Shown here one piece after another: positions 4,226 to 22,598 of a stretch of DNA of 24,192 nucleotides. This DNA comes from a virus, in IMG/VR virus record IMGVR_UViG_3300020185_000259, positions 1 through 24,192 of that record. One strand, given 5' to 3'. Every line of letters starts with the position of its first letter. The stretch's first letter is position 1. Below the pieces are notes generated by a model. The model worked only from the letters and a program-made list of their open reading frames with translations. It was not told where the DNA came from and searched no databases. The position numbers were made by a program, and so were the translations under genes.

Positions 4226-4428
4226 GCTGACGCCTCCTCAGTTTTTACGAACACGGTGTAATCCGTGTTATGATTTGGAAACCGCTTATCATTGTGGACT
4301 ACCATGTCCACAGCAAAACCTTCGTCGAAGACTTCCGAAACGAAACCTGTAGCGCGTTTACCGTTGCGTTCAAAATTGACATAAGAACCATTCAGATACG
4401 CTTTTGGGTTGGTAGTTGATTTGCTCAT
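4222..4428 (-). CDS. Hypothetical protein, 68 aa
   Basis: It starts at ATG 4428 with GGAGATAATAC upstream and overlaps its neighbours by 4 bases at each end. The sequence (GSYVNFERNGKRATGFVSEV, then FAVDMVVHNDKRFP) suggests a small beta-barrel or SH3-like fold. No family is recognised. Confidence 0.68.
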   Translation of the reverse strand: MSKSTTNPKAYLNGSYVNFERNGKRATGFVSEVFDEGFAVDMVVHNDKRFPNHNTDYTVFVKTEEASA

Positions 4429-4568
4429 GTATTATCTCCATCGGTATATTTTACATCATTTTTATTAAAACGTTTTTTCTCACGTTCTTCCATGAATGGG
4501 TATACTATTGCTGCCAGCACCCATAAAACGAAAACAACAGCCAGCGAGATTATGAAAAAGGTATCCAT
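4425..4568 (-). CDS. Small single-pass membrane protein, 47 aa
   Basis: ATG 4568 follows the previous stop by one base, and the 3' end overlaps the next ATG (ATGA). Residues ~3-25 (TFFIISLAVVFVLWVLAAIV) form a membrane span. The remainder is a charged cytoplasmic tail (EEREKKRFNKND). No clear ribosome-binding site lies at optimal spacing, so translational coupling is likely. Function is unknown. Confidence 0.65.
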   Translation of the reverse strand: MDTFFIISLAVVFVLWVLAAIVYPFMEEREKKRFNKNDVKYTDGDNT

Positions 4569-4569
4569 C

Positions 4570-4821
4570 TTAGACCAAATGTCCTTCTACTTTTAAACTG
4601 TTTGGCTTCCATCCTGCGATGATGACTTTGGCGGTCAATTGGTATCCCATAGCATCAAGAACACTACGGATGTATTCAATCTCATCTGCTTCCGCAAGAC
4701 CAGCATGATACGCACGGCTGTCATCCGACATCATGTAAGTCCAGTCGTGAAACTTACATTTCTCGTGAAGAATTTCACAGATTTCTGTCGCGTCCAGCCC
4801 AGACAAATTTACCTTTTCCAT
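4570..4821 (-). CDS. Hypothetical protein, 83 aa
   Basis: ATG 4821 overlaps the stop of the preceding gene (TAATG). The protein has a helical N-terminus (DATEICEILHEKCKF), a middle AYHAGLAEADEIEYIRSVLD and a strand-like C-terminus (AKVIIAGWKP). No motif or family is recognised. Confidence 0.65.
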   Translation of the reverse strand: MEKVNLSGLDATEICEILHEKCKFHDWTYMMSDDSRAYHAGLAEADEIEYIRSVLDAMGYQLTAKVIIAGWKPNSLKVEGHLV

Positions 4822-5033
4822 TACGCCACCTCTCCTAAAAATGATTTAACTGGATCGAAACTTTTAGACCAATGATTGAAGACATAATACGCAGCGGCAG
4901 GAGTCATGTTAAACTCTTCTTGGAGCATCATCTCACCCCAACGCTGCGCTTCACCTTCTACATTCATAACATCTAACGCTTCGAACATTTCTGCGATGGT
5001 AACGCCGGAAACAAACTCGGGGATATTACTCAT
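4821..5033 (-). CDS. Hypothetical protein, 70 aa
   Basis: Start ATG 5033 (MSNIPEFVSGVTIAEMFEAL) is preferred over an upstream in-frame start because AAGGAGAATGAT lies directly before it. The protein is small, acidic and mainly helical, ending KSFDPVKSFLGEVA. It overlaps the next gene by one base. No family is recognised. Confidence 0.68.
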   Translation of the reverse strand: MSNIPEFVSGVTIAEMFEALDVMNVEGEAQRWGEMMLQEEFNMTPAAAYYVFNHWSKSFDPVKSFLGEVA

Positions 5034-5043
5034 ATCATTCTCC

Positions 5044-5307
5044 TTATTGGTAAGCACAAACACGATCCCAAAGATTAATCAATTCTTCAGCGTTCTTGAA
5101 ACCGTACTCTTGAGCAGATTCATCGTCGCCACAAGAAGCCTCAATGAAGCCTGACGAAGCCCTGACCGTCTTGGCAGAGCCACCAGCCTTCCTGATTAGT
5201 TCCGCGAGAAACCATGCGCCATTGCTCATACCAACGATTTTTTCACCGTCATGCAGCTGAATAGCACCATGGCCATTCATTTCAGTCAAAGAGATATAGT
5301 CGATCAT
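5044..5307 (-). CDS. Hypothetical protein, 87 aa
   Basis: This is the first gene after promoter site B, with AAAGGAC upstream of ATG 5307. Its sequence runs MIDYISLTEMNGHGAIQLHD, then SGFIEASCGDDESAQEYGF and KNAEELINLWDRV. The pattern looks like a compact alpha/beta protein. I do not recognise a family. It heads a run of six overlapping or adjacent small genes ending at 3744. Confidence 0.7.
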   Translation of the reverse strand: MIDYISLTEMNGHGAIQLHDGEKIVGMSNGAWFLAELIRKAGGSAKTVRASSGFIEASCGDDESAQEYGFKNAEELINLWDRVCAYQ

Positions 5308-5670: not shown

Positions 5671-5720
5671 ATTATGGATCAATTACATAAACATTTCAAG
5701 GGTGGATAACTTGTTGATTT
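5671..5720 (-). promoter_or_regulatory. Boxed sigma70-like promoter, site C
   Basis: Minus strand: box AATCAACAAGTTA (identical to sites B and F), 7 bases, -35 TTGAAA, 17 bases, -10 CATAAT. Its box and -35 lie inside the 3' end of the upstream gene (5683-5955). It drives the gene at 5386-5646. Confidence 0.78.
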
Positions 5721-5955
5721 TAGAGGGATTCGGCGGGCGGTTTTTGATCACACCTGTGCGGATCTCTTCTTTTGTGAGATCTCGGAATGTTCTCCTCGAA
5801 ACAGACCATTGTTTCTTGGGCTTGGAGAATCGAATCTCTTCACCATCATAGGGTATGAAGCCAATCAAGTAGCTACCTTCAGTGATGTAGATGTGGTTTG
5901 TAGTGGTGGGTGCTTTGTCCCAAACGGTGGTTTCTAAACGATATCGTGCAGCCAT
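5683..5955 (-). CDS. Hypothetical protein, 90 aa
   Basis: Start ATG 5955 (MAARYRLETTVWDKAPT) is chosen for its GGAGGTG site and TAATG overlap with the preceding gene. The protein is strand-rich in the first half (NHIYITEGSYLIGFIPYDG), then basic (SKPKKQWSVSRRTFRDL). The C-terminus SKINKLSTLEMFM contains a Leu-Glu-x-Phe element resembling the tail of gp43 here, though one residue differs and it may be coincidence. No family is recognised. Confidence 0.68.
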   Translation of the reverse strand: MAARYRLETTVWDKAPTTTNHIYITEGSYLIGFIPYDGEEIRFSKPKKQWSVSRRTFRDLTKEEIRTGVIKNRPPNPSKINKLSTLEMFM

Positions 5956-10999: not shown

Positions 11000-11050
11000 A
11001 TAATACTAAAATTTCTACAAATTGTCAATTGGTGAGTAACTTGTTGATTC
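11000..11050 (-). promoter_or_regulatory. Boxed sigma70-like promoter, site F
   Basis: Minus strand: box AATCAACAAGTTA, 8 bases, -35 TTGACA (perfect), 17 bases, -10 TATTAT. The box begins immediately after the TAG stop of the kinase gene. It drives the HNH gene and the run down to the cupin, and separates them from the modification cassette. Confidence 0.8.
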
Positions 11051-11592
11051 TAGAGGATTTCCGCGATCGATTCTAGGATCGCTTTCTGTTGATCGAGGTT
11101 ATTGTTACTGTGGTATTCGATACAAGACATGAGATCGAAGTTGGTTCCGAGGTTCTGGTATTTGGTCTCGCGACTCTTGATGAATTGAGTGCTTTGAGTC
11201 GAACCCCGATCTTCATATCTAATTTGCAAAGTGGTCTTGTCTGTCTGTAACATAAACACTCTCAAATCACCGGCATCGGAACAAGCTTCTAGGAAGGTCT
11301 GAGTGAACAGCCGATCACCCTCGAAAAGAATGTTCGAAGTATTTGTCTTCAGAAACTCGATGGCCTTTGGTTGTACCGCCATGCTAAGACGATCGGTTCC
11401 TTGGGCATAACCTTCACCATCATACCACGGTTGGTACTTACCAAGAACGTAAAGGTCAAGAGCCTCGCTATAGATGGAATCTAGTAGTGCAGCAGGTTTA
11501 ACCGCAACCCAGTCTTCTACTCGATCAATTATTTTTTGGACAATGGTGGTCTTGCCCGTTCCTGGAACCCCACCAACAGCAATTATCTTCAT
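11050..11592 (-). CDS. P-loop kinase, candidate DNA hydroxymethyl-base kinase
   Basis: This 180-aa P-loop NTPase has Walker A GVPGTGKTT (residues 8-16, Lys14), a Walker B-like ILFEGDRLF (88-96) and a lid segment with SRETKYQNL (140-148). That matches small nucleotide/nucleoside kinase folds. Family precedent in phages with hypermodified thymine (5-hydroxymethyl-dU DNA kinases) shows such enzymes phosphorylating hydroxymethylated bases in DNA before transferase attack. The gene overlaps the 2OG dioxygenase gene (ATGA) and is the last of the cassette. Kinase fold is secure. The base-kinase role is inferred from context, and an ordinary dNMP or small-molecule kinase is the alternative. Confidence 0.8.
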   Translation of the reverse strand: MKIIAVGGVPGTGKTTIVQKIIDRVEDWVAVKPAALLDSIYSEALDLYVLGKYQPWYDGEGYAQGTDRLSMAVQPKAIEFLKTNTSNILFEGDRLFTQTFLEACSDAGDLRVFMLQTDKTTLQIRYEDRGSTQSTQFIKSRETKYQNLGTNFDLMSCIEYHSNNNLDQQKAILESIAEIL

Positions 11593-12932
11593 CCAAAGAA
11601 CTCCTCAAGTGATGATGTTTCGTCTTGTGGGTGGTATTTGGCCAACATCTCCTCGCCACCAGTTTTACGTAAATATTCAAACCATTCAGGTTTAGACCAC
11701 ATAGAAGGTGAAACGCCGTTCCATAATGGTCGATACATCGGGTGTGTCACATTCTTACTTCGTTCTGACACAAACTGTCTGCGAATTGACTCATATTCCC
11801 AACTACCTAATTCTAGCATTTTCTCTCGGAAATAGCAAACAAGAGAGATACGCTCCATGTCTTCGAGTGCCTTACCCTTGGGAGGAACCAGTTCTGTATT
11901 GCCGTGAATGCCGTCATGGTTATTAATCAGCAACAGATCTCCAGGTCGAATATTGATCGCGACTCTATACTCGGGCAGAACTAGGTATCCTCCCTCCCAC
12001 TCTTTGTCTTTCGCAATCACGGATAGGTTAGAGAATCCCGCGTGAAGATCACCGGCATCACGGTGAGCAGATGTGCGAAAGTTTTTGTTCACCGTTACAG
12101 TGGTGAACGGAGTATCCTCGCCAGCGACTCTAAATCTGGGGTCGAGTCGCGCAGCAGCTTCATTCTGGACATTGAACCGTTCTGGCAAGAGTCGCTGAAA
12201 CTCGCTAGAGAGTTTGCGCATGAACGGATAACACTTCTCATAAACATCACGATGGTGTTCAGTGTAAGCTGTTGCTCGACCCCATGGGATGCGAGGATAC
12301 CGATCAAAGAACCCAGCAATACCAGACAATACTTGGTTAGCATAGGTTGTATTTGATACATAGTTTTCAAACAGATCTTTGGCTGCAGCCTGACGTGAAG
12401 CAAAAGGTAATGCTTGGATTTCTTCGATCTTAATGTCAAAGAATTTCTCGTAATCATAACCTTCAGCGTCAATCTTGCTTTTAATCCAAACAATTCCTCG
12501 AGCTTCTTGAGGATCTTTAATCTGTTTGTGCTTCTTTCGAATTCTTTCTACCGGATCTTCGTCCTGATCATCAACCAAACTAACAGTCTGACCTTTAATG
12601 AAGTGATCCATAATCTCTATCTGTTCTTCGGTGCACCAGTTTCGCCCACCTTGTCGTTCACCCTTTGGGCCAGCGGCCATGCCACGGTTCTGGGTGGGTT
12701 GTGCTGCTTCTACTAGACCGTCGTATGCGCCAGCTTGTTCTTCTGCGGTGAATCTATTCTTACGAAACATGAAAATACATTCTTTCTCAGAAGGCTCTGT
12801 GCGACCAATTTCTTGGATAGGCGCATAGAAATCCATATCTTCTTCTACGAGGATATCGTAATCAGAATCTTCCATGTACTTACCAAGCTTATCTTCGCAA
12901 TTGTATTTTCTTTTAGCTATAATTACTTCCAT
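11589..12932 (-). CDS. TET/JBP-like 2-oxoglutarate/Fe(II) dioxygenase
   Basis: Residues ~250-370 form a double-stranded beta-helix dioxygenase. FRTSAHRDAGD gives the Fe ligands His290 and Asp292, GGYLVLPEYRVAI is the central strand pair, NNHDGIHGNTE gives the distal His343, and SLVCYFRE gives the 2OG-binding Arg369. The 'N.n.RT..H.DaGD...G.s.l.vi...EGGYLvLPe' pattern is that of TET/JBP enzymes, which hydroxylate the methyl of thymine or 5-methylcytosine in DNA. The ~220 N-terminal residues are acidic then helical and have no recognisable domain. The C-terminus ends SSLEEFFG, like gp43. ATG 12932 has AGAGGAAT upstream. The substrate (T or 5mC) cannot be read from sequence; no C5-methyltransferase is in the window. 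Confidence 0.87.
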   Translation of the reverse strand: MEVIIAKRKYNCEDKLGKYMEDSDYDILVEEDMDFYAPIQEIGRTEPSEKECIFMFRKNRFTAEEQAGAYDGLVEAAQPTQNRGMAAGPKGERQGGRNWCTEEQIEIMDHFIKGQTVSLVDDQDEDPVERIRKKHKQIKDPQEARGIVWIKSKIDAEGYDYEKFFDIKIEEIQALPFASRQAAAKDLFENYVSNTTYANQVLSGIAGFFDRYPRIPWGRATAYTEHHRDVYEKCYPFMRKLSSEFQRLLPERFNVQNEAAARLDPRFRVAGEDTPFTTVTVNKNFRTSAHRDAGDLHAGFSNLSVIAKDKEWEGGYLVLPEYRVAINIRPGDLLLINNHDGIHGNTELVPPKGKALEDMERISLVCYFREKMLELGSWEYESIRRQFVSERSKNVTHPMYRPLWNGVSPSMWSKPEWFEYLRKTGGEEMLAKYHPQDETSSLEEFFG

Positions 12933-13258
12933 ACCATAAATTCCTCTAGAGATCCTGAATTTTCTCGCTTTCTTTTTTCATTTTCTTTTCTGAGACGCAC
13001 CCTTTCTCTATGCCCTGCGGTTTTATATCCGAGCGTTTTAGATCTTTCTTGTGTGTCTTGGTTATGACAGGAGACGCAAAAATCTCTTAATTTGGTTTTT
13101 GAATTTGGTTTTAAATAATACTCGCTACCAACTTTTACCACGCCACAACATTTACATCGTTTCATAACAACATTGTTTTTGCCATAAACCGTTATTAAAG
13201 AAAGTTCAGGCAACAATTTTCGATATTGTACACCTGCAGTGAATACGTTTTGTTTCAT
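12923..13258 (-). CDS. Small zinc-cluster protein of the modification cassette, 111 aa
   Basis: ATG 13258 overlaps the previous stop (ATGA) with AGAAGGATT upstream. Residues 35-38 (CKCC) and 61-65 (CVSCH) are paired cysteines about 23 residues apart, separated by YYLKPNSKTKLRDF: a treble-clef-like zinc ribbon resembling the zinc half of HNH/Endonuclease VII proteins. The catalytic His-Asn residues are not evident. A very basic helix follows (RERVRLRKENEKRKRE), suitable for DNA or RNA contact. The C-terminus SGSLEEFMVWK includes the Leu-Glu-Glu-Phe element shared with other cassette proteins. It may be a DNA-binding accessory factor. Function is unproven. Confidence 0.72.
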   Translation of the reverse strand: MKQNVFTAGVQYRKLLPELSLITVYGKNNVVMKRCKCCGVVKVGSEYYLKPNSKTKLRDFCVSCHNQDTQERSKTLGYKTAGHRERVRLRKENEKRKRENSGSLEEFMVWK

Positions 13259-14229
13259 CACATAAATCCTTCTAAGCCATGTCCTGATGAGCTTTCTTCG
13301 AAGTCACCAGTATCTAAGTAGAGTTCCATTTTATACTTTTCTATCTTATTATTCAACCATTTGTTCTCGAGTGTTTCTTTTCGAGCGTCCCACATGGGAG
13401 TCCAATCAATTCCCCACCAATCATCCTGCTCAACCTTCATGATTTCTTCTGCTTGCCTATCTATGTAGTAGCCAAGGTATCGACCACGGCTCTTACGGAA
13501 CAGCTTCTTGAATGAGCAGAGAGCAGTCTCCATAGCGAAGAAATCAGCCTTGTCGGCAACGTGTGGATACTGCCGCCTTGTTTCTTCGAGCAATTCCTTA
13601 GCCTCTTCTTCTAACTGAGCAACGCAAGATTTATCTAATTTGAGATCAACCCAATGATCTTTGCCTACAGCATAACACATACCGTTACGATGAGAACGAG
13701 ACCCGCTGTAGTCGTGGAACCAAAGTCCATCGACGTCAATAGGGATATCACAACATTGCTTCAGTGTTTGCATATAAAACCAAGAGGTGTATCGACCAAA
13801 TTTATGCCAGCTGTTAACCTCGTCCCAGAGCGTGTAAAAGTTGCCAACCTTGTCCTCAGTAAACCCAGCAGTAAGGGCTTCACGCTGAGATCGATCACCA
13901 ACCCAGTTCTTATATGACATAAATTGATCAGCCAAGTGTCCTTTGTTCCACTTAGTGTCTGTTTGGTATCTCAATCGTTTGTAATTCTCGTTGTTCCACT
14001 CTTTCAATCGTTCAACGCCAACCAGATGCATATCAGGAAACTCGTTCCAAATTACGTAAGAAGTAGGCCAGTAGTAGGTGTTGCCATACAACCAAGCCAA
14101 CCAGAGACGTTGCTCCTTGTTGTACTCGAATCTGTCGAAGAAATAATTGGTCATAAACAAGGCAGAATCGCAGTCTTCGATTTCAAGGCTACGGCCGAAC
14201 CATCTAACAAATGTTTCTTGTCTAGTCAT
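13258..14229 (-). CDS. Amino acid:DNA transferase (alpha-glutamyl/putrescinyl thymine pyrophosphorylase)-like protein
   Basis: This 323-aa, helix-rich and Trp/Tyr-rich protein has distinctive conserved-looking blocks: EQRLWLAWLYGNTYYWPTSY (40-59), NYKRLRYQTDTKWNKGHL (82-99), KFGRYTSWFYMQTL (143-156), YSGSRSHRNG (174-183) and FFAMETALCSFKKLFR (230-245). I associate these with the ADDT / thymine pyrophosphorylase group. Members replace the phosphate of a (pyro)phosphorylated hydroxymethyl-pyrimidine with an amine such as glutamate, glycine or putrescine. Context supports it: dioxygenase and P-loop kinase follow in the same operon, GNAT and amidotransferase precede. The C-terminus GHGLEGFM is a weaker version of the gp43-like tail. 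Family assignment is from recall and not certain. Confidence 0.72.
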   Translation of the reverse strand: MTRQETFVRWFGRSLEIEDCDSALFMTNYFFDRFEYNKEQRLWLAWLYGNTYYWPTSYVIWNEFPDMHLVGVERLKEWNNENYKRLRYQTDTKWNKGHLADQFMSYKNWVGDRSQREALTAGFTEDKVGNFYTLWDEVNSWHKFGRYTSWFYMQTLKQCCDIPIDVDGLWFHDYSGSRSHRNGMCYAVGKDHWVDLKLDKSCVAQLEEEAKELLEETRRQYPHVADKADFFAMETALCSFKKLFRKSRGRYLGYYIDRQAEEIMKVEQDDWWGIDWTPMWDARKETLENKWLNNKIEKYKMELYLDTGDFEESSSGHGLEGFM

Positions 14230-14230
14230 A

Positions 14231-14884
14231 TTATAAAAAGAATTCCAATGTGGAGGTTGATTGTTCTTCTAACGAATCTCTCAGCCAATAATCACCAACA
14301 GCTTCAATTGCTTGCTGAACTACTGCCGTTTTCTTTACTCCGAATCCGTGGGAGTCGGGGCTTTCCTTTCGTAGAAGTTGTAATACTTTTGGGTCTTTTG
14401 GTAACGCGAGCGTAGGGTCTTTTAGTGCCAGCTCTCTGAACGTAGTTTGTTCGTGTATGTTGGGGAACAATGGTTGGTCGGAACGGAGTGAGCCAGAAGG
14501 ATCAATTGCCCAGAACACCAAACCATTACGTTTGTGCCATGTTATACTAGAAGGAGTACAAGAAATCTTCAACCGTTTCATGCCGGACTCGCAAGCTGTT
14601 GTCATAACACGCTCCCAGATCTCGGAAGCGTAGCCCATACCTTCGTTTCCTTCTAATGTAACAATTTCATAGAGATTAACATATCTCGATCTTTTGCTGA
14701 AGGTAGCGAAGACAAAGGCAACAGGTTCCTCTCCGACAAAGAGTCCAAAGGGTGGTTGCTTTTCATAGTTTTTAAATCGGAACCAGAGATTATGAGATGA
14801 TTTTAAAAATCTCGTATTCTTTCCTTCTGGCTGTGATTCAATAACTTCTTCTAGTAATTCTTTACTGCAAGTCGTCAAATACAT
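14231..14884 (-). CDS. GNAT-family acetyltransferase, 217 aa
   Basis: The GNAT fold is seen as PFGLFVGEEPVAFVFATFSK (strands 2-3), LYEIVTLEGNEGMGYASEIW (strand 4 and the acyl-CoA pyrophosphate loop at ~79-86) and a helix, then RLKISCTPSSITWHKRNGLVF, matching the C-terminal 'N..a..fy.k.GF' region. It would acylate an amine using acyl-CoA. ATG 14884 (MYLTTCSKELLEEVIES) is preferred to an earlier in-frame start because it limits overlap with the amidotransferase gene. No strong ribosome-binding site is seen, so coupling is likely. The last residues STSTLEFFL closely match the gp43 tail. In context the substrate may be an amine-bearing modified base. Confidence 0.83.
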   Translation of the reverse strand: MYLTTCSKELLEEVIESQPEGKNTRFLKSSHNLWFRFKNYEKQPPFGLFVGEEPVAFVFATFSKRSRYVNLYEIVTLEGNEGMGYASEIWERVMTTACESGMKRLKISCTPSSITWHKRNGLVFWAIDPSGSLRSDQPLFPNIHEQTTFRELALKDPTLALPKDPKVLQLLRKESPDSHGFGVKKTAVVQQAIEAVGDYWLRDSLEEQSTSTLEFFL

Positions 14885-15548
14885 AATTAATATCAAATGG
14901 TATAGTGCAATCATACACTTTCAAGTGGAAGTTTTCAACCACATAGTTATGTAGCTGTTTAGTTTTGATTGGATTTTTCAATCCAGAGCGTAAAGCAATA
15001 TCTTTCGTCGAGGTAAAGATAATTCCTCGAGGATGCTTGCTGTACCATAATGGTCTTTCATGATTACGAAAAGCGGTCATCTTTCTGTTTTCGTCTAGAG
15101 AAACAACTGCCATACTAGACTCAGGGAAGTCGATGAATGGGTGCGAATCCTCCTCGAGACTTCGGAGAACAAGCTCAGAGTCGTTTCCTGTTTCGCATTG
15201 ATACATCCATTGGAACTGAGGCTCTTGCGTTATAACGCCGTTATGCACAATGGAGAGGTGATCATTGGCAAGTGGTTGAGGGTAATCTAAATCAGAAGTT
15301 GAGTATCGAGTATGTCCGATCATGTAAATTCCACCATCCGGTGTTACCGTGTCAAACAAATCCCACTTAGTGAAGAACTCTCCGACGCTGGTGTTTTCCT
15401 TACGTGTTTGAATCAGACCGTCATCATCAATCCAAGAAGCGCCAACTGAATGTTTCCCTCTTACTTGAGACTCATAAAATAGAGTCTCAATCAACGCAAG
15501 GTCTTGCTCTTCAACATTTTGAAGATATATTCCGAGAACTCCGCACAT
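14862..15548 (-). CDS. Class II glutamine amidotransferase (Ntn hydrolase), 228 aa
   Basis: The N-terminus MCGVLGIY gives the catalytic Cys2, exposed after Met removal. Class II landmarks follow: GHTRYST (78-84), HNGVIT (102-107, oxyanion Asn103) and GNDSELVLRSL (121-131, Asp123 gripping glutamine). The domain length of about 220 aa matches the stand-alone GATase domain of the GlmS/PurF/AsnB type, with no attached synthetase or sugar isomerase. It would release ammonia from glutamine for a partner enzyme. ATG 15548 has AAGAAAGGAT upstream and it is the first gene of the cassette. It could instead transfer or hydrolyse a gamma-glutamyl group on a modified base. The partner is inferred, not seen. 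Confidence 0.9.
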   Translation of the reverse strand: MCGVLGIYLQNVEEQDLALIETLFYESQVRGKHSVGASWIDDDGLIQTRKENTSVGEFFTKWDLFDTVTPDGGIYMIGHTRYSTSDLDYPQPLANDHLSIVHNGVITQEPQFQWMYQCETGNDSELVLRSLEEDSHPFIDFPESSMAVVSLDENRKMTAFRNHERPLWYSKHPRGIIFTSTKDIALRSGLKNPIKTKQLHNYVVENFHLKVYDCTIPFDINYVFDDLQ

Positions 15549-15562
15549 CTTAGTATCCTTTC

Positions 15563-16204
15563 TTAGTGCCAGCGGTAAAATTTGTGTTCACCAATTCGCC
15601 CAACTCGAACCATTCCACGATCGTTTATCCAATTCGGACTAACATATGTCGCGTGATAGTGAGTAGATCCTTCTGTTATACCTCGAAATCCATAGGAATT
15701 CAATGTCATCTCAGCAATGATTTGAGCGTCTTCCCAAGCCTCTTCTTCCATAGGTTCGTCACTCAACCCATCACAGAACCATGAGAAATGACACATGCCG
15801 CGAACAGGCACTTCGTCACCTTTCCAGTTGGTTCTCATTACAGATTGATTTACCACCTCGCAGATGGTGTTAGGAAATAAATTACTGTCGACTCTGTTTA
15901 GAACCACATCAGCAACAGCAATCCTCCCAGCGAAAGAATCGCTACGAGACTCGTGGTATATGTTAAGAGCAAGGCATTCCAGATCTTTTGCGGCTGGCTG
16001 GGCTGCAAGTTCAGGTTCGATGACCTCAATTGTTTCTGCTGATTCTTCTTCTTGATATGTTTCAATTGCCTGTTCAATTGGCGTTGTTTCTTCAATTGAT
16101 TTACTGTTCTCATCTTCTTCCTGTGCGTAATAAACTGTAGCAGCAAACATATAGAGTAATACTAGAATGGGTAATATCTCTTTCTTATTGATCTTCATTA
16201 TCAT
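15563..16204 (-). CDS. Membrane-anchored SleB-type cell wall hydrolase
   Basis: The N-terminus MIMKINKKEILPILVLLYMF forms a signal anchor (span ~10-28). A Glu-rich linker of about 40 residues (EEDENSKSIEE to EPELAAQPAAK) follows. The C-terminal SleB/Hydrolase_2 domain begins at ~75: LECLALNIYHESRSDSFAGR with catalytic Glu85, then AVADVVLNRV, CHFSWFCDG, and GSTHYHATYVSPNW near the end. SleB-family enzymes are lytic transglycosylases cutting peptidoglycan. The anchor would place it on the periplasmic face of the inner membrane. Its position in the replication region, not near holin or tail genes, is unusual. The first ATG, 16204, overlaps the neighbouring gene. Confidence 0.9.
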   Translation of the reverse strand: MIMKINKKEILPILVLLYMFAATVYYAQEEDENSKSIEETTPIEQAIETYQEEESAETIEVIEPELAAQPAAKDLECLALNIYHESRSDSFAGRIAVADVVLNRVDSNLFPNTICEVVNQSVMRTNWKGDEVPVRGMCHFSWFCDGLSDEPMEEEAWEDAQIIAEMTLNSYGFRGITEGSTHYHATYVSPNWINDRGMVRVGRIGEHKFYRWH

Positions 16205-16454: not shown

Positions 16455-17840
16455 TTAGAATCTGATTGTTTGAAGTCTCTCTCCGGAAACCCTCCTTCCT
16501 GCGTCACTGCGGTCAAATACTGGTGGTGTATCATCCATAATATTTTCCTGCTCAGTTTCATCAACATCAAATAATTTCATTTTAGACCGATCTACCCCAA
16601 TACAAAACCGTTTGTTTTGGCTCGGGTCATTATAACGATTTTTTAATTGTTTGACCATTATTTGTCCATTCGCGTCTAATTCTTCATTAGAAATCAGCGC
16701 GAACATTAGGTCAGCGGTGGCAGGTAAGCCAAATGATTCTGAGGTATCCTCAAGACCAACATCAGAATTACCATAACCAGACCGCGTTGTCTGTGTCGCA
16801 GACATAATGGGTACATTAAACTCTACAGCCAAACCACGAATTTCTTCAGCGATTGATTTAATATATGAGTATGAATTGATCGAACCACCCATACCCTTCA
16901 TTCTAGATGAGGCACATATATTTAGGTAATCAATGAACACAATCTCGGGTGCAAATCGTTTTTTAAGTTTTAATTCGTTCAAGAGTGCTCTGAAGTGTCC
17001 AGTGTGTGCAGCACCCGTCGGATATTCCTTAATGATCAATTTGCCATTTGTTTTCTTTGAGATTTTCGCGACACGGTCGGTAAACATATCCTTAGACATT
17101 TTATCGAGTTGGTCGATCGGGACGTTCAACAGATTAGCGTCAATACGTTCCGCTATACGTTCTTCAGCCATTTCCATGGTGATGTATAAGACGTTATGAC
17201 CAAGAGAAAGGCAACTGGCAGCGTGATGACACATAAAAAGACTTTTGCCCACGCCTGTACCGGCCAGTGCGATGTTCAGAGTCTTATTGGGAAGTCCACC
17301 TTTAGTTATTCGATTCAGATAATCGAGATCGAATGGTATACGTTCCTCTTGCTCATGGTAAAAGTCGAATCGCTCTTGGACATTTTCTAAATAGTCGTGC
17401 CCCACATTAGTGTCAAAACATACTGCCAGCGCCTTTTGTAACACATCAGGCAGCGAATTTTTGGTAAGCTGTTGATGTTTGCCATCAATGATCTGGATAG
17501 ACTCCATGATGGCGTTATACACGGCTCGATCTTGGCACCACTTCTCAGTTGTATCAAGCAACCACTGTTCATCTTCCTCTTTAAAGGTAAAGACATCATG
17601 TAGTATATCAAGTGCATGTGTATACATTTCCTCAGTCAGCGAAGCGTCGTCGAGTTCAATCTTGAACGCTTCCTGAGAGGGGAGTTTATTATATTTAGTA
17701 ACATAGTTCACTACTTCACTAAACATAGTTCGGTAGATTCCCTCGAAGTAGTCTTTCTTAACGAACGGGAGAACCTTACGCATGAAAGGCTCGTTCGTTA
17801 AGAGATTACGTAAGATTGTTTTTTCTAATTCAATATTCAT
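16455..17840 (-). CDS. 41: Replicative DNA helicase (T4 gp41-like, DnaB family)
   Basis: This 461-aa protein is close in length to T4 gp41 (475). The N-terminal helical domain spans ~1-150 (LEKTILRNLLTNEPFMRKV). The RecA-like domain starts near 165: GGLPNKTLNIALAGTGVGKS carries Walker A (Lys199), ITMEMAEERIAERID is the DnaB 'E-x-E' segment, and EIVFIDYLNICASS is Walker B. SATQTTRSGYGN and KQLKNRYNDPSQNKRFCIG follow, as in DnaB motifs 3 and 4. It unwinds the lagging-strand template 5'-to-3' as a hexamer. ATG 17840 overlaps the stop of the 101-aa gene (ATGA), in the uvsX-x-41 order of T4. Confidence 0.95.
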   Translation of the reverse strand: MNIELEKTILRNLLTNEPFMRKVLPFVKKDYFEGIYRTMFSEVVNYVTKYNKLPSQEAFKIELDDASLTEEMYTHALDILHDVFTFKEEDEQWLLDTTEKWCQDRAVYNAIMESIQIIDGKHQQLTKNSLPDVLQKALAVCFDTNVGHDYLENVQERFDFYHEQEERIPFDLDYLNRITKGGLPNKTLNIALAGTGVGKSLFMCHHAASCLSLGHNVLYITMEMAEERIAERIDANLLNVPIDQLDKMSKDMFTDRVAKISKKTNGKLIIKEYPTGAAHTGHFRALLNELKLKKRFAPEIVFIDYLNICASSRMKGMGGSINSYSYIKSIAEEIRGLAVEFNVPIMSATQTTRSGYGNSDVGLEDTSESFGLPATADLMFALISNEELDANGQIMVKQLKNRYNDPSQNKRFCIGVDRSKMKLFDVDETEQENIMDDTPPVFDRSDAGRRVSGERLQTIRF

Positions 17841-18142
17841 TGAGTTTGCTCTTTCGATACCACCGTTCCTTCTTCAACGCCTTCTTCTAAGACGGCTTCG
17901 AGAATATCTGCCGCAGTCAGTTGTAGACTAGTATCATCTACGGTCAGCTCAGAGTCTGGAGAAGATATAATCGAAAAGTTAAAATTCAAACAATCGTTTT
18001 CGCCATCGATAGAGATATTACCGAACCTGATTACAGATTCGACATAATCACCGGAAAGAATTCGAATGTCCCAACCCTGCTGGTTGTCAATATCAACAGG
18101 GATTAATTCGTAATCAGCGCCTTCGCGTAGCATCTTATCCAT
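17837..18142 (-). CDS. Conserved-position hypothetical between uvsX and 41, 101 aa
   Basis: ATG 18142 overlaps the uvsX stop (TAATG) and the end overlaps gene 41, so it is firmly coupled. It occupies the place of T4 gene 40 but has no obvious similarity to gp40 that I can see. The sequence MDKMLREGADYELIPVDIDN, then GWDIRILSGDYVESVIRFGN and LNFNFSIISS, reads as a small beta-rich acidic protein with a disordered C-terminus. From memory, similar proteins sit here in marine T4-like phages, with unknown function. Confidence 0.75.
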   Translation of the reverse strand: MDKMLREGADYELIPVDIDNQQGWDIRILSGDYVESVIRFGNISIDGENDCLNFNFSIISSPDSELTVDDTSLQLTAADILEAVLEEGVEEGTVVSKEQTQ

Positions 18143-19164
18143 TAAACTTCATCCAATTCTAATGAAACGGAAGCCTTGTGGCCAATTTGGTACAGTTGAT
18201 TAACCATTTCATTGAACTCTGTGTTCTCGAGAATACTTTGCCAGAAAGAACCATCGAGTTCACTGGCTCGATATTTCTTATCTTCACCAACCTTTTGGTA
18301 CCAACCATTCGATGGTTTGACTACATAACCACCAGCCAGTGCAACATCAAGGAGACCACTATATTGATCAATACCACCATCCCAAGAAACACTAATAGGA
18401 ATTTTACTCTTTTCTTTAACATAACGAGATTTATCCACATTTACAATAAAATCATATCCAGTAACTTCAGTACCGGTCTTATTCTGCCGACGACCGATGA
18501 TCCAGATGGAGTCTGCCGAGTAATAAATTCCTGTGCCTCCACCAACGATATCTTTAGGAAACAACCCGATCTCTTTGTAGGTGTGATTCACTGCAAGCAT
18601 TGGGATATCTTTCATGGTCAGGTAAGGAGTGGCCATCCTGAACAGACCCTTCAGAGCTTTTGCGCGGGACATATCAGCGACAGACTTTTCATTCAACGTG
18701 TCTTCCATTTCTTTCTTGGAAGCGAGGTTGCCGATCGAGTCGATAACGATGATGACCTTTTCCTTTGCTTCGATATTCTCGAGCTGGGAGATCAAGTCAA
18801 ACTTCAATTCTTCGACGTTGGTAATAGGAACATGCAACACTCGATCCAACTCGATACCAAACGTTTCGAAGTATGACTGTGGTGACCCAAACTCAGAATC
18901 ATAAAACATCATCACAGCTTCGGGGTCGGCCTTCAGGTACGCTGCAGCAATCTTCAACGCGAACGAAGTCTTGAAATGCTTAGAAGGGCCAGCGAGAACG
19001 GTTAGCCCAGAAGACAACCCACCAGTAAGAGAACCAGAAAGCGCCACGTTTAACATCGGTACATCTGTGACAATCTGTTTCTTGTTGCCAAAGAACTCGG
19101 ACTCGGAAAGAATCGCGGTGTGCTTCAGCTTGCTTTGTTTCTGTAGTTTTGACATTAATGACAT
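18142..19164 (-). CDS. uvsX: RecA-like recombinase UvsX
   Basis: This 340-aa protein, a little shorter than T4 UvsX (391), shows the phage form of Walker A (GPSKHFKTS, residues 59-67), typical of UvsX rather than bacterial RecA. FYDSEFGSP (88-95) holds the catalytic glutamate and VIIVIDSIGNLAS (137-149) is Walker B. MLAVNHTYKEIGLF and IVGGGTGIYYSADSIWII correspond to loop L2 and motif 4a. It forms filaments on ssDNA and drives strand exchange for recombination-dependent replication. ATG 19164 has AAGGAAAAAAT upstream. It lies between the primase-like gene and a small coupled gene. Confidence 0.96.
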   Translation of the reverse strand: MSLMSKLQKQSKLKHTAILSESEFFGNKKQIVTDVPMLNVALSGSLTGGLSSGLTVLAGPSKHFKTSFALKIAAAYLKADPEAVMMFYDSEFGSPQSYFETFGIELDRVLHVPITNVEELKFDLISQLENIEAKEKVIIVIDSIGNLASKKEMEDTLNEKSVADMSRAKALKGLFRMATPYLTMKDIPMLAVNHTYKEIGLFPKDIVGGGTGIYYSADSIWIIGRRQNKTGTEVTGYDFIVNVDKSRYVKEKSKIPISVSWDGGIDQYSGLLDVALAGGYVVKPSNGWYQKVGEDKKYRASELDGSFWQSILENTEFNEMVNQLYQIGHKASVSLELDEV

Positions 19165-19173
19165 ATTTTTTCC

Positions 19174-20103
19174 TTAGTTACGGTAAACGTATTCAATTGC
19201 ACCATCTGCTTCTTTCTCAAGTGGACGATTATCATACCACTTTCCTGTCTCATTATCAAGTTCTCTACACATATCTGCGATCTGTTTAGCAGTAATGGGG
19301 TAATCTGCTTTGACTGCATTAGCAGCAACAGCAACCATTATCGCATACATTTTTGAGTACCATCCTGTTCCTGTTATAGCAACATACTCTCGCGCTAGTC
19401 TCTTGGGGAAGAAAGGGCAATCTTTGTAGGAAGTCCAAGCGATATCAGTATTCGTCGCTTGGGATCTTCGATACGAAACCACTTGGTCTCGTAGAGCTGG
19501 GGGTAGGCGATCCAAGAAACTGTTGCCTGTCGGTTTCTCGTATGGCCACGCTTTCATAAGCGCGTCTGGGTTCATCTCCTTACCATCATTAGAGAAGATA
19601 AAGTTAAATGCATCGGGATAAACAGCAGGTACATAATACATTCTTGACAGATCTTTCGTTTGCCTGTCACCAATATCACCAAGCATTTTGTTTAACGCGT
19701 GCCAAAAATGCGGTATCTCGTCCGCTACGATTTCGCGAGTTAGTGGAAACACCAACCGAAACTTTGGTTGAATCGGGGTGCTGCTGGCGGTTGAGTAGCA
19801 AACAAATTTATATGACCCACAAATTGACTGTAGCTCTTGGTGCACTGGAAGCCGCGTGTCTGTGAACTCATCAACATCAACACAGCACCACTTACCCCAT
19901 TGCTCGACATTTCTATTAGAGCGGGTCGTACCTTGTTCATAGACGGCAGGAGTAATCAACGCGCTACTATCTTTGCCGCCTTTCTGTCCAGGTTCGAGAG
20001 AAAGTTTATACAACAAGGACTCAAAGCTTTCCCAAGAAGCGAACTCCATGGTGCGATGAGTCTTGTTGTCGAACGTATTTTTAAATATAGTTAACGAATA
20101 CAT
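19174..20103 (-). CDS. Archaeo-eukaryotic primase (AEP)-like protein with PriCT-like C-terminus
   Basis: In this 309-aa protein, KWCCVDVDEF (residues 71-80) supplies the AEP metal-binding Asp76-x-Asp78. FVCYSTASSTP and KFRLVFPLTR follow, where AEPs usually have an 'S-x-H ... FRlv' block. The His is replaced (STASST). TKDLSRMYYVPAVYP (149-163) matches the 'D.sR.yYlP' block. Residues ~245-309 look like a PriCT helical domain (MYAIMVAVAANAVKADYPIT). It may make primers or act as an initiator-like partner of gp41; a DnaG-type gp61 is not seen in the window. Starting at ATG 20103, it lies only 6 bases after the -10 of promoter G. The missing His leaves activity uncertain. Confidence 0.75.
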   Translation of the reverse strand: MYSLTIFKNTFDNKTHRTMEFASWESFESLLYKLSLEPGQKGGKDSSALITPAVYEQGTTRSNRNVEQWGKWCCVDVDEFTDTRLPVHQELQSICGSYKFVCYSTASSTPIQPKFRLVFPLTREIVADEIPHFWHALNKMLGDIGDRQTKDLSRMYYVPAVYPDAFNFIFSNDGKEMNPDALMKAWPYEKPTGNSFLDRLPPALRDQVVSYRRSQATNTDIAWTSYKDCPFFPKRLAREYVAITGTGWYSKMYAIMVAVAANAVKADYPITAKQIADMCRELDNETGKWYDNRPLEKEADGAIEYVYRN

Positions 20104-20109
20104 GGTAGT

Positions 20110-20160
20110 ATTATCTTCTACTTTGCGTAAATTGTCAACCGCTATGTAAGGTATTGATTT
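20110..20160 (-). promoter_or_regulatory. Boxed sigma70-like promoter, site G
   Basis: Minus strand: box AATCAATACCTTA, 8 bases, -35 TTGACA (perfect), 17 bases, -10 GATAATACT. The box begins at the gp43 stop. Only 6 bases separate the -10 hexamer from ATG 20103, so the transcript would be almost leaderless. No further boxed promoter occurs until site F, so G probably drives the replication/modification run. Confidence 0.82.
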
Positions 20161-22598
20161 TATGAGAAAAACTCATCCAGAGTAGACCTTGGCTCATCGT
20201 CCCAACCAATCGCAGTGAGGATCGGCTTCAACGGCTCGAGAAAGGTTTTGTCATACATCAAATCATAGTTGATGAATTTATGTAGGTGCAGCTCTTTAGG
20301 CAAAGAGTTGGGGAACGCGATAACATTTTCTCGTATTCCATTTGGCTTTTTTAGATAGATGAATTTAATTTTGTCACCGTCTTTGATGGTTTCATATTTC
20401 TTGTCGAGGCTGGCTTTCTTGATTGCATTATTATATAACAGAGACCCTCGACAATGAATTGGGGTGCCTTTGGAGTAGATGACTTCTCGGTCTGACCACT
20501 TAGTCATATCTCGCACGGAGCGAGGAAACGCGATGGTCTCTGGTTCAAGTTGACGAAACTCTTTTCTGAAGGCAAGGATGAACTCTTGTGTCTCTTTCTC
20601 AGTCCCATTCATCAATACGTGGAATATTTCCTTGAACCGATCTCGGCAGATCTGAGGAGTCGAAGATTTGATCGCTTCAATCCCCATAATCTTTAGTTTA
20701 GGTTCAGCGTACTGAACACCCTCTGAGTTGTGTACTTGGAGAATGTAGCGTTTCTTGGCTGTCCAGACTCCACGGTCAGCAATTACTTCACGCTTCATCA
20801 CCATCCTATTCTCGTAAGCATCGGTGTCTATTGCTTGATACTTATACGCGCTGGCGATGGCTTTCTCAAAATGCTCGCAGACCCCATCGAGAAATTTAAC
20901 AGGATTATTGGGCCGATGTTTCTTAACCAGATCAGCCATATTGATATAGACAGAATCAGTATCAATTGCGATAACATAATCTTCTTTGGTGCCGAGGAGA
21001 GTTTGTAACTCATCATTAACAGCTTTCTCTGCACATAAGATCGCGCGTTGACCTGTAGTTGTTACCGCTTCTGCGATTTTTAGGTCGAAGTATCGGAAGT
21101 ACTGATTGGCCAACGCGCCGTAGAGAGAGTTCATTAAGATCTTAACCGCCATCTGTTGGTTGTCAAAGATCGTAATATCGTTTGCCAATTTCTTGGTAGG
21201 CGCTTCAGCATATTCTTTCTGAGCGTTGATCATTTTAGTCTTAGCGTCGACTCGGTCACCATAAAACTGCTTGATAACTTTCGGGATAATACCTTCAACG
21301 TCTTTGCGATACCGAGTACCATTAGCTGCTTTGGTCGTGTTCTCACCGTGATATACCAAGGTCTCGGGAGACATATTGTACTGTACAATAATATTTGGGT
21401 AGAGAGAGTTTAAATCGAAAGAACAAACCCATTCATGCATTCCGACCTGTGGTTCCTTTACATAGCCACCAACGATGGTATCCTTAGAGTGAAACTTCTT
21501 GGGTGGGACTATGATATTGTCTCGCAATAGCTCATTGTAAATGACTGCGTCCCATATATTAGTTGTCCCGAAAGCGTCACTGTAGTTTACCTTGGCTTTA
21601 TATGCCATGGTCATCGCTAGGGTAATCAACCCCATCTTTTCTTCGAGTCTCTCAACTAACTCAACGTCCTTGATGTTATAATCAATGAACTTCTGGAAGT
21701 CCTCTCGGTAGAGCGTATGCAGATTACCGAATTCTTCATAGGAGAGTTTTTTCTCGCCAAGAACAGACCAAGCAATATGGTCTAGCTTAAATGATTCTTG
21801 CTGGCCGTAAGTCAGTACACCAAACTTCTGGAACAGATCATAATAGTCGAGCTGGGATATACCTTCCAACTCAAACGCTACGGCTTCTTGTCCCATGCGA
21901 GTATGCACCTTTCTCTCTCGCACAATTCCCCATGGAGAAAGTAGCTTTACAGAATCCTCTCCGAGAATGTGAGTAATTCGGTTAGCCAAGTATGGGATAT
22001 CAAAGAGCTTGCTGTTCCAGCCAGTAACGACATCAGGTGAGTGGTGTTCCGAGGACCACCAATCGAGAAACTTACTCAGCAACTCAGACTCGTTATCGCA
22101 TTTGATATACAATACTTCATGGTCGTTTTTGGTGACGTCATAATCTCCCATACCCCATACCCAATACGCGGGGCCATGGTTGCTCTTGCACGCAATCGAA
22201 ATGACTTCATGTAATGCTTGTTCGGGGTGCGGGAATCCTTGGTCAGATTGAACCTCAATATCGATGGAAGTTACATTAATCTCGTCTCGGTCGAATTTTA
22301 GAGGTAGCGGGAAGTACTCACCGATGAACTGGAATACAAAGTTCGCCATACCGTAGGTCTCTACGTTTTCTACGTCGGCGTACTTCTTAAGCCTCTCTGT
22401 GGCGGAGCGCATATCGTTAACGCTTTCGATCGGTTTTAATGGCAATCCGTATAGGGATTTGTATTCACTGTTTTTGTTTGTTGTGCGTTCAAATAGGGTT
22501 GGAACGTATTTGATCTTGGTACTGACTCGTTTACCGTTGGCGTAGCCTCGGTAAAGAATATTGTTTCCATGTCTAACTACATTAGTATAAAATTTCAT
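20160..22598 (-). CDS. 43: Family B DNA polymerase (T4 gp43)
   Basis: This 812-aa protein compares with 898 in T4. The 3'-5' exonuclease motifs are TSIDIEVQ (Asp113, Glu115), [14 protein letters not shown] (191-204) and [13 protein letters not shown] (308-320). Polymerase motifs are [15 protein letters not shown] (394-408, motif A), [16 protein letters not shown] (486-501, motif B) and [12 protein letters not shown] (543-554, motif C with Asp546 and Asp548). It is the replicative polymerase with proofreading. The last residues STLDEFFS correspond in position to the gp45 clamp-binding tail of T4 gp43. ATG 22598 has GAGGT upstream. Gene order regA-hsp20-43 followed by uvsX-41 is T4-like. Confidence 0.98.

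Follow-up and report, generated by a model that had tools for sequence, protein, structure and literature searches.

The DNA analysed here (the window) is the complete 24,192-base IMG/VR entry IMGVR_UViG_3300020185_000259, a fragment of a marine-type virus. Between positions 11050 and 15548, its minus strand carries a candidate DNA hypermodification cassette. Six open reading frames (ORFs) were confirmed there, encoding a class II glutamine amidotransferase (GATase), a GNAT acyltransferase, an amino acid:DNA transferase (ADDT), a small zinc protein, a TET/JBP dioxygenase, and a P-loop kinase (Table 1). Successive genes overlap by 23, 4, 10, and 4 nt, and a 1-nt gap separates the GNAT and ADDT genes, in agreement with an earlier description of the same DNA made from its letters alone (the sequence-only reading), which had reported six overlapping or abutting genes at this position. 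The ORF of the GNAT opens at 14914; its start was set to 14884, where its homologues begin.

Table 1. Positions and C-terminal tails of the cassette proteins and of the DNA polymerase in the window.
Feature	Positions	Strand	Length (aa)	Description	C-terminal tail (positions)
GATase	14862..15548	-	228	class II (Ntn) glutamine amidotransferase, stand-alone glutaminase	
GNAT acyltransferase	14231..14884	-	217		STLEFFL (14234-14254)
ADDT	13258..14229	-	323	amino acid:DNA transferase, aGPT-Pplase2 type	GLEGFM (13261-13278)
Small zinc-ribbon protein	12923..13261	-	112	CxxC...CxxC; accessory	SLEEFMVWK (12926-12952)
TET/JBP	11589..12932	-	447	2-oxoglutarate/Fe(II) dioxygenase	SSLEEFFG (11592-11615)
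P-loop kinase	11050..11592	-	180	presumed 5-hydroxymethyl-dU DNA kinase	no clamp-type tail
PolB	20160..22598	-		family B DNA polymerase, DNA_pol_B 2e-31	STLDEFFS (20163-20186)

The protein identities given in the sequence-only reading are borne out by Pfam, profile, and fold matches, although those of the zinc protein are weak. The GATase matches Pfam GATase_6 (4e-8); its best NCBIfam model is purF (6.5e-11), and its best match among PDB profiles is an amidophosphoribosyltransferase. Residues C2, R81, N103-G104, and D123 are invariant among its relatives and provide the N-terminal cysteine nucleophile, the glutamine-binding arginine and aspartate, and the asparagine-glycine oxyanion pair of class II enzymes. 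The GATase ends in DLQ (14862-14870), which is almost invariant across all homologues and could be a docking peptide for a partner enzyme. The GNAT scores marginally below the cut-off of Pfam Acetyltransf_1 (6e-4). It has the fold of its family, since the Foldseek neighbours closest to its AlphaFold2 model (pLDDT 92) are PaiA, Ard1, and SpeG-type N-acetyltransferases, and its acyl-CoA motif, EGxGYA, is conserved. The ADDT matches PF18724 with 85 bits against a cut-off of 26 (6e-24), and a ViI-like ADDT is 29% identical to it. Sequence search against the PDB gave no match for the ADDT, and its structural relatives come from the fold search only: the AlphaFold2 model (pLDDT 87) best matches entries 8z2m and 8z2n, the 5-phosphomethyl-dU (5-PmdU) glycinyltransferase of phage PaMx11, with a probability of 1.00, a TM-score of about 0.6, and a Foldseek E-value of 0.01. 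In the nearest relative of the window (L005, positions 4303-5270), whose proteins are 97-99% identical, the ADDT is split into two ORFs of 205 and 122 aa by a frameshift or a sequence error. The TET/JBP protein matches Tet_JBP (PF12851, 2e-25) and aligns weakly to TET2. Its iron triad H290xD292 and H343 and the 2-oxoglutarate-binding R361 are invariant in relatives, and it is probably an oxidizer of a methylpyrimidine in DNA. The kinase matches Pfam AAA_18 / Ploopntkinase3 (1e-7), and within an 18-sequence set its profile recovers the ADDT-operon kinases of phages Cr30, Kozie, Tonitrus, and RawrgerThat with E-values from 8e-66 to 5e-20. The zinc protein has weak endonuclease VII and HNH-like matches (PHROG endonuclease VII, 4e-7).

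Searches of IMG/VR yielded 48 TET and 35 ADDT loci, and a GNAT profile scan gave 337 relatives, of which 80 were kept and 33 have enough flanking sequence. Co-occurrence was counted over non-redundant loci with enough flank; the contigs are fragments and the loci share ancestry. The GATase, TET, and kinase are present in 13/13 ADDT loci, and none of GATase, GNAT, ADDT, or kinase was found in the ten ADDT-free TET loci (0/10). Simple arithmetic puts the chance of so clean a split at about 1 in 1.1 million, a figure that takes no account of the relatedness of the loci. All five enzymes occur in 33/33 GNAT loci, with GATase, GNAT, and ADDT contiguous in 30. The main gene order is GATase-GNAT-ADDT-TET-kinase, and in some loci the TET lies upstream of the GATase. 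In a variant cassette (variant B), the GATase is followed by an amidoligase-like protein (PF12224, below cut-off), another GNAT, and a protein that we read as ParB/GIY-YIG-like, without Pfam support. Cassette loci sit in differing gene neighbourhoods. On the TET tree, the presence of ADDT needs seven changes, at least five of which are forced by well-supported branches, which indicates repeated exchange of the module rather than inheritance of a single block.

The unit consists of five genes, not six. The sequence-only reading had counted the zinc protein as a member of the cassette, but its gene is present in 0/13 ADDT loci with enough flank, and a relative (82%) adjoins a TET without ADDT in L025. 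The zinc protein is therefore left out of the core, is ruled out as a pathway enzyme, and is regarded as accessory. Conversely, the GATase and GNAT, previously taken for late decorations, belong to the conserved core. No match to the GNAT was found in 50,697 isolate phage records, no near DNA match to the window in isolate phages, and no ADDT cassette in bacterial or archaeal genome contigs. ADDT-free TETs (L019-L026, L035-L044, L047, L048; L002, L003) are paired with a TET-associated glycosyltransferase (TAGT) in most loci, with NAD-epimerase-like genes, or with UDP-galactopyranose mutase. These loci are candidates for base-J-like phage DNA with glycosylated hydroxymethyluracil; none of those searched yielded a C5-methyltransferase, and the TAGT proteins also carry C-terminal tails of the type described next.

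Upstream of the cassette, at 16455-22598, lie genes for a T4-type UvsX, a DnaB-like helicase, and the family B polymerase, as expected from the T4-like replication region proposed previously. A SleB-type cell wall hydrolase gene (15563-16204) is positioned between the cassette and the replication genes. The polymerase, TET, GNAT, ADDT, and zinc protein share a C-terminal tail of the [ST]LExFF type (Table 1). Across relatives, the strict tail pattern is present in 41/46 TETs, 23/26 GNATs, 22/33 ADDTs (28/33 with a loose pattern), 5/5 zinc proteins, and 9/10 polymerases. It is found in 0/29 GATases, one of 30 kinases, no UvsX or helicase, and 4% of other ORFs, several of which are TAGTs or variant-B GNATs. 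The pattern occurs at 0.6-0.7% of within-protein positions, compared with 6/45 genes of the window (binomial p 5e-7, post hoc). In the GNAT and ADDT models the tail is disordered. T4 gp43 ends in ASLDFLFG, which fits the pattern, and gp55 ends in PSLDFLYEAND, which resembles it; both ends are known clamp-binding tails, and the tails of the window are C-terminal hydrophobic peptides of the same kind. Clamps of the gp45 type were found in 11/13 TET-bearing records searched. In phage DLP6, the polymerase ends in ATLDSFFA and the TET in ATLGDFFV. The ViI-like phage sal1 has a different tail, common to its polymerase, kinase, and ADDT (NLLSMM / SLLGLL / NLMTLL; L085 8833, 11240, 13023) and present in no other of 193 ORFs; the pattern was derived from these three proteins. 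In the window, a small minus-strand protein of unknown family (5683-5955) ends in KLSTLEMFM and is possibly a further clamp client. A conserved 195-aa protein (L060, L068, L070, L073, and others) ends in DSDLSGFFEE, and may be a late sigma factor similar to gp55 that bears a clamp tail.

The genes that accompany the TET point to a probable target base. Enzymes of this family require a methyl group, and thus 5-methylcytosine (5mC) or thymine. Because the window is a fragment, genome-wide absences are argued from relatives. Searches of 16 TET-bearing records gave no C5-cytosine methyltransferase (PF00145); among these records are the whole genomes of DLP6, C48C1, Cr30, Tonitrus, Kozie, and RawrgerThat, as well as IMG/VR contigs between 51 and 155 kb long. 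The thymidylate synthase-type (TS-type) dUMP hydroxymethylase (PF00303), which supplies 5hmdUTP in M6, ViI, and PaMx11 thymidine hypermodification, is, by profile search, absent from the TET-bearing records except Cr30, although absence in such a search is not proof of absence. The Cr30 enzyme has a strong score for thymidylate synthase. The positive control sal1, which has ADDT and kinase, possesses a TS homologue and no TET. The presence of TET in relatives lacking both C5-methyltransferase and TS-type hydroxymethylase suggests that it replaces the nucleotide-level route, and that its substrate is very probably thymine in DNA. Hydroxylation at the nucleotide level is accordingly disfavoured, in line with the sequence-only reading, in which this step acts on DNA and not on dNTPs. 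That reading had left the target as thymine or 5mC; thymine is much the likelier, and 5mC is disfavoured.

On balance, we favour the interpretation that the cassette encodes a post-replicative thymine hypermodification pathway tethered to the replisome, with all functions inferred. The TET would hydroxylate the thymine methyl group in DNA to give 5-hydroxymethyl-dU (5hmdU), which the kinase would phosphorylate to 5-PmdU. The ADDT would then exchange the phosphate for an amine. In PurF, ammonia displaces pyrophosphate, and since the GATase is closest to PurF, the incoming group may be ammonia released from glutamine, which would yield 5-aminomethyl-dU. Finally, the GNAT would cap the amine as an amide, for example as N-acyl-aminomethyl-dU; its resemblance to polyamine-type acetyltransferases is consistent with the capping of an alkyl amine. 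In the variant cassette, the amidoligase-like enzyme and the other GNAT may carry out the capping. The logic of hydroxylation, phosphorylation, substitution, and acylation, put forward in the sequence-only reading, is strengthened by the relationship of the ADDT to the solved 5-PmdU glycinyltransferase, and the route from 5hmdU through a kinase to an amine transferase is established (PMC6449724). This order of reactions is quite likely. Ammonia as the nucleophile is about an even bet against the conventional amino-acid step, and the exact product named above is doubtful. The modification is likely to protect the DNA from host nucleases. We propose, tentatively, that the PurF-like glutaminase and the ADDT jointly form a DNA amidotransferase, exchanging the phosphate on a DNA base for ammonia, within a replisome-tethered assembly line leading from thymine in duplex DNA to an N-acylated aminomethyl base. 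This line would run in a widespread group of uncultured T4-like viruses, and its DNA-modifying enzymes would carry copies of the clamp-binding polymerase tail.

Several observations weigh against this chemistry. The nucleophiles of characterized ADDTs are amino acids, glycine for example, and not ammonia. The GATase gene adjoins that of the GNAT, or of the amidoligase-like protein, and not that of the ADDT, and the GATase could therefore work with a protein other than the ADDT. The profile of the kinase matches the ViI-like kinase weakly (E 0.0025, 18-sequence set); of the two proteins on whose membership in DNA-modification families the sequence-only reading depended, the ADDT is placed inside, and the kinase is linked to them through ADDT operons. 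It is plausible, at somewhat less than an even chance, that the ADDT attaches glycine, serine, or a similar amino acid to 5-PmdU as in known phages, and that the GATase and GNAT then amidate or acylate it. The glycinyltransferase activity of the best structural match, the similarity to the ViI-like ADDT, and the position of the variant-B amidoligase-like gene directly after the GATase all agree with such a route. However, amidation would need an ATP-dependent carboxylate activator, which the main variant lacks, and no DAO-type flavin enzyme that would free the amine was found in six large GATase-type contigs; in Microbacterium phage Kozie, by contrast, such an enzyme lies next to the ADDT. The GATase and GNAT are most unlikely to be mere neighbours with another task, such as the modification of host envelope or proteins known from LUZ24-like amidoligase clusters. 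In isolate phages, class II GATases do lie in such clusters, but the two genes co-occur strictly with ADDT in loci whose neighbourhoods differ, and the GNAT has a polymerase-type tail. A cytosine pathway, with the TET oxidizing 5mC and the kinase and ADDT building an aminated cytosine, is highly improbable. Phage TETs acting on 5mC were reportedly found by Burke and colleagues in 2021, and TET-only relatives have TAGTs (PF20691); nevertheless, no C5-methyltransferase was found in the complete genomes and long contigs listed above, and relatives of the ADDT and of the kinase are linked to thymidine hypermodification.

The tails allow a similar comparison. Because they are shared with the polymerase and resemble that of T4 gp43, they suggest tethering to the clamp, with modification just behind the fork. 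The TET, ADDT, and GNAT would be held there by C-terminal peptides binding the sliding clamp of the polymerase, which we consider fairly likely. Speaking against it, the tail pattern was defined after inspection of the data, the tails of a second clade loosen to STLEDLF, GLEAIW, and VDLF, and the kinase lacks a tail although it needs access to DNA. Furthermore, T4 alpha-glucosyltransferase (alpha-GT), which, unlike beta-GT, co-purifies with gp45 in a 2026 study (PMC13216743), has no recognizable C-terminal peptide; it supports clamp binding in general and was rejected as proof of a tail rule. The same enzyme is the point in favour of the view that the tails have some other shared binding partner, or that they are a functionless habit of the lineage. 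We regard this as rather unlikely, as in the window and DLP6 the tail equals that of the phage's own polymerase, it matches gp43, resembles gp55, and is flexible in models, and in sal1 the polymerase, kinase, and ADDT alone share a different tail.

Relatives of the five-gene hypermodification cassette number in the hundreds in uncultured viruses, the search of isolate phages found none, and a specific base can be predicted for the cassette. Clamp binding by the tails, if real, would tie base hypermodification physically to replication, and would account for the ability of phages to modify a large part of their DNA ahead of host nucleases. An ammonia-using DNA amidotransferase would, if true, bring a novel reaction to DNA, and it might serve as a tool to introduce amine handles. 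In the literature searched, neither the GATase-GNAT-ADDT-TET-kinase unit nor its abundance among uncultured viruses and its lack in isolate phages is described, and the same holds for polymerase-like tails on hypermodification enzymes. The coupling of GATase to GNAT and the tails provisionally appear to be new.

Systems of the TET/JBP, kinase, and aGPT-Pplase class were reportedly predicted by Iyer and colleagues in 2013 (cited in PMC6449724). The combination of TET, kinase, and ADDT is not new; it was already described as an operon of Rhodococcus phage Tonitrus (PMC11955845), and the three genes stand together in the window as well. Tonitrus, Mycobacterium phage RawrgerThat, and Kozie resemble the window in having TET/JBP, ADDT, and a homologous kinase, and no TS-type hydroxymethylase or C5-methyltransferase was found in them. 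Their operons differ in lacking the GATase-GNAT pair, in place of which they have ParB-like and/or flavin enzymes, and in encoding TETs without an LxxFF tail. In Pseudomonas phage PaMx11, 5hmdU is made at the nucleotide level, and glycine and a flavin lyase give the amine. The window has a TET and a GATase instead. The ADDT fold, the logic of kinase followed by transferase, and the predicted product, aminomethyl-dU, are common to both (PDB 8z2m/8z2n; Wen et al. 2024, cited in PMC11946847). The Salmonella phage sal1 shares ADDT and kinase with the window, and both of these enzymes carry a tail like that of its own polymerase; it differs by a TS-type hydroxymethylase in place of TET and the lack of a GATase-GNAT pair beside the ADDT. 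The TETs of Caulobacter phage Cr30 and Stenotrophomonas phage DLP6 belong to the same subfamily as that of the window (40-49%). Cr30 also has ADDT and kinase, although its genes are scattered and accompanied by a thymidylate synthase, whereas in DLP6 the partner of the TET is a TAGT, with no ADDT next to the TET. T4 alpha-GT differs from the window in forming glucosylated hydroxymethylcytosine on a dNTP-derived hydroxymethyl base and in having no C-terminal LxxFF peptide, but it modifies DNA and binds the sliding clamp (PMC13216743; Sommer 2004), as is proposed here for cassette enzymes.

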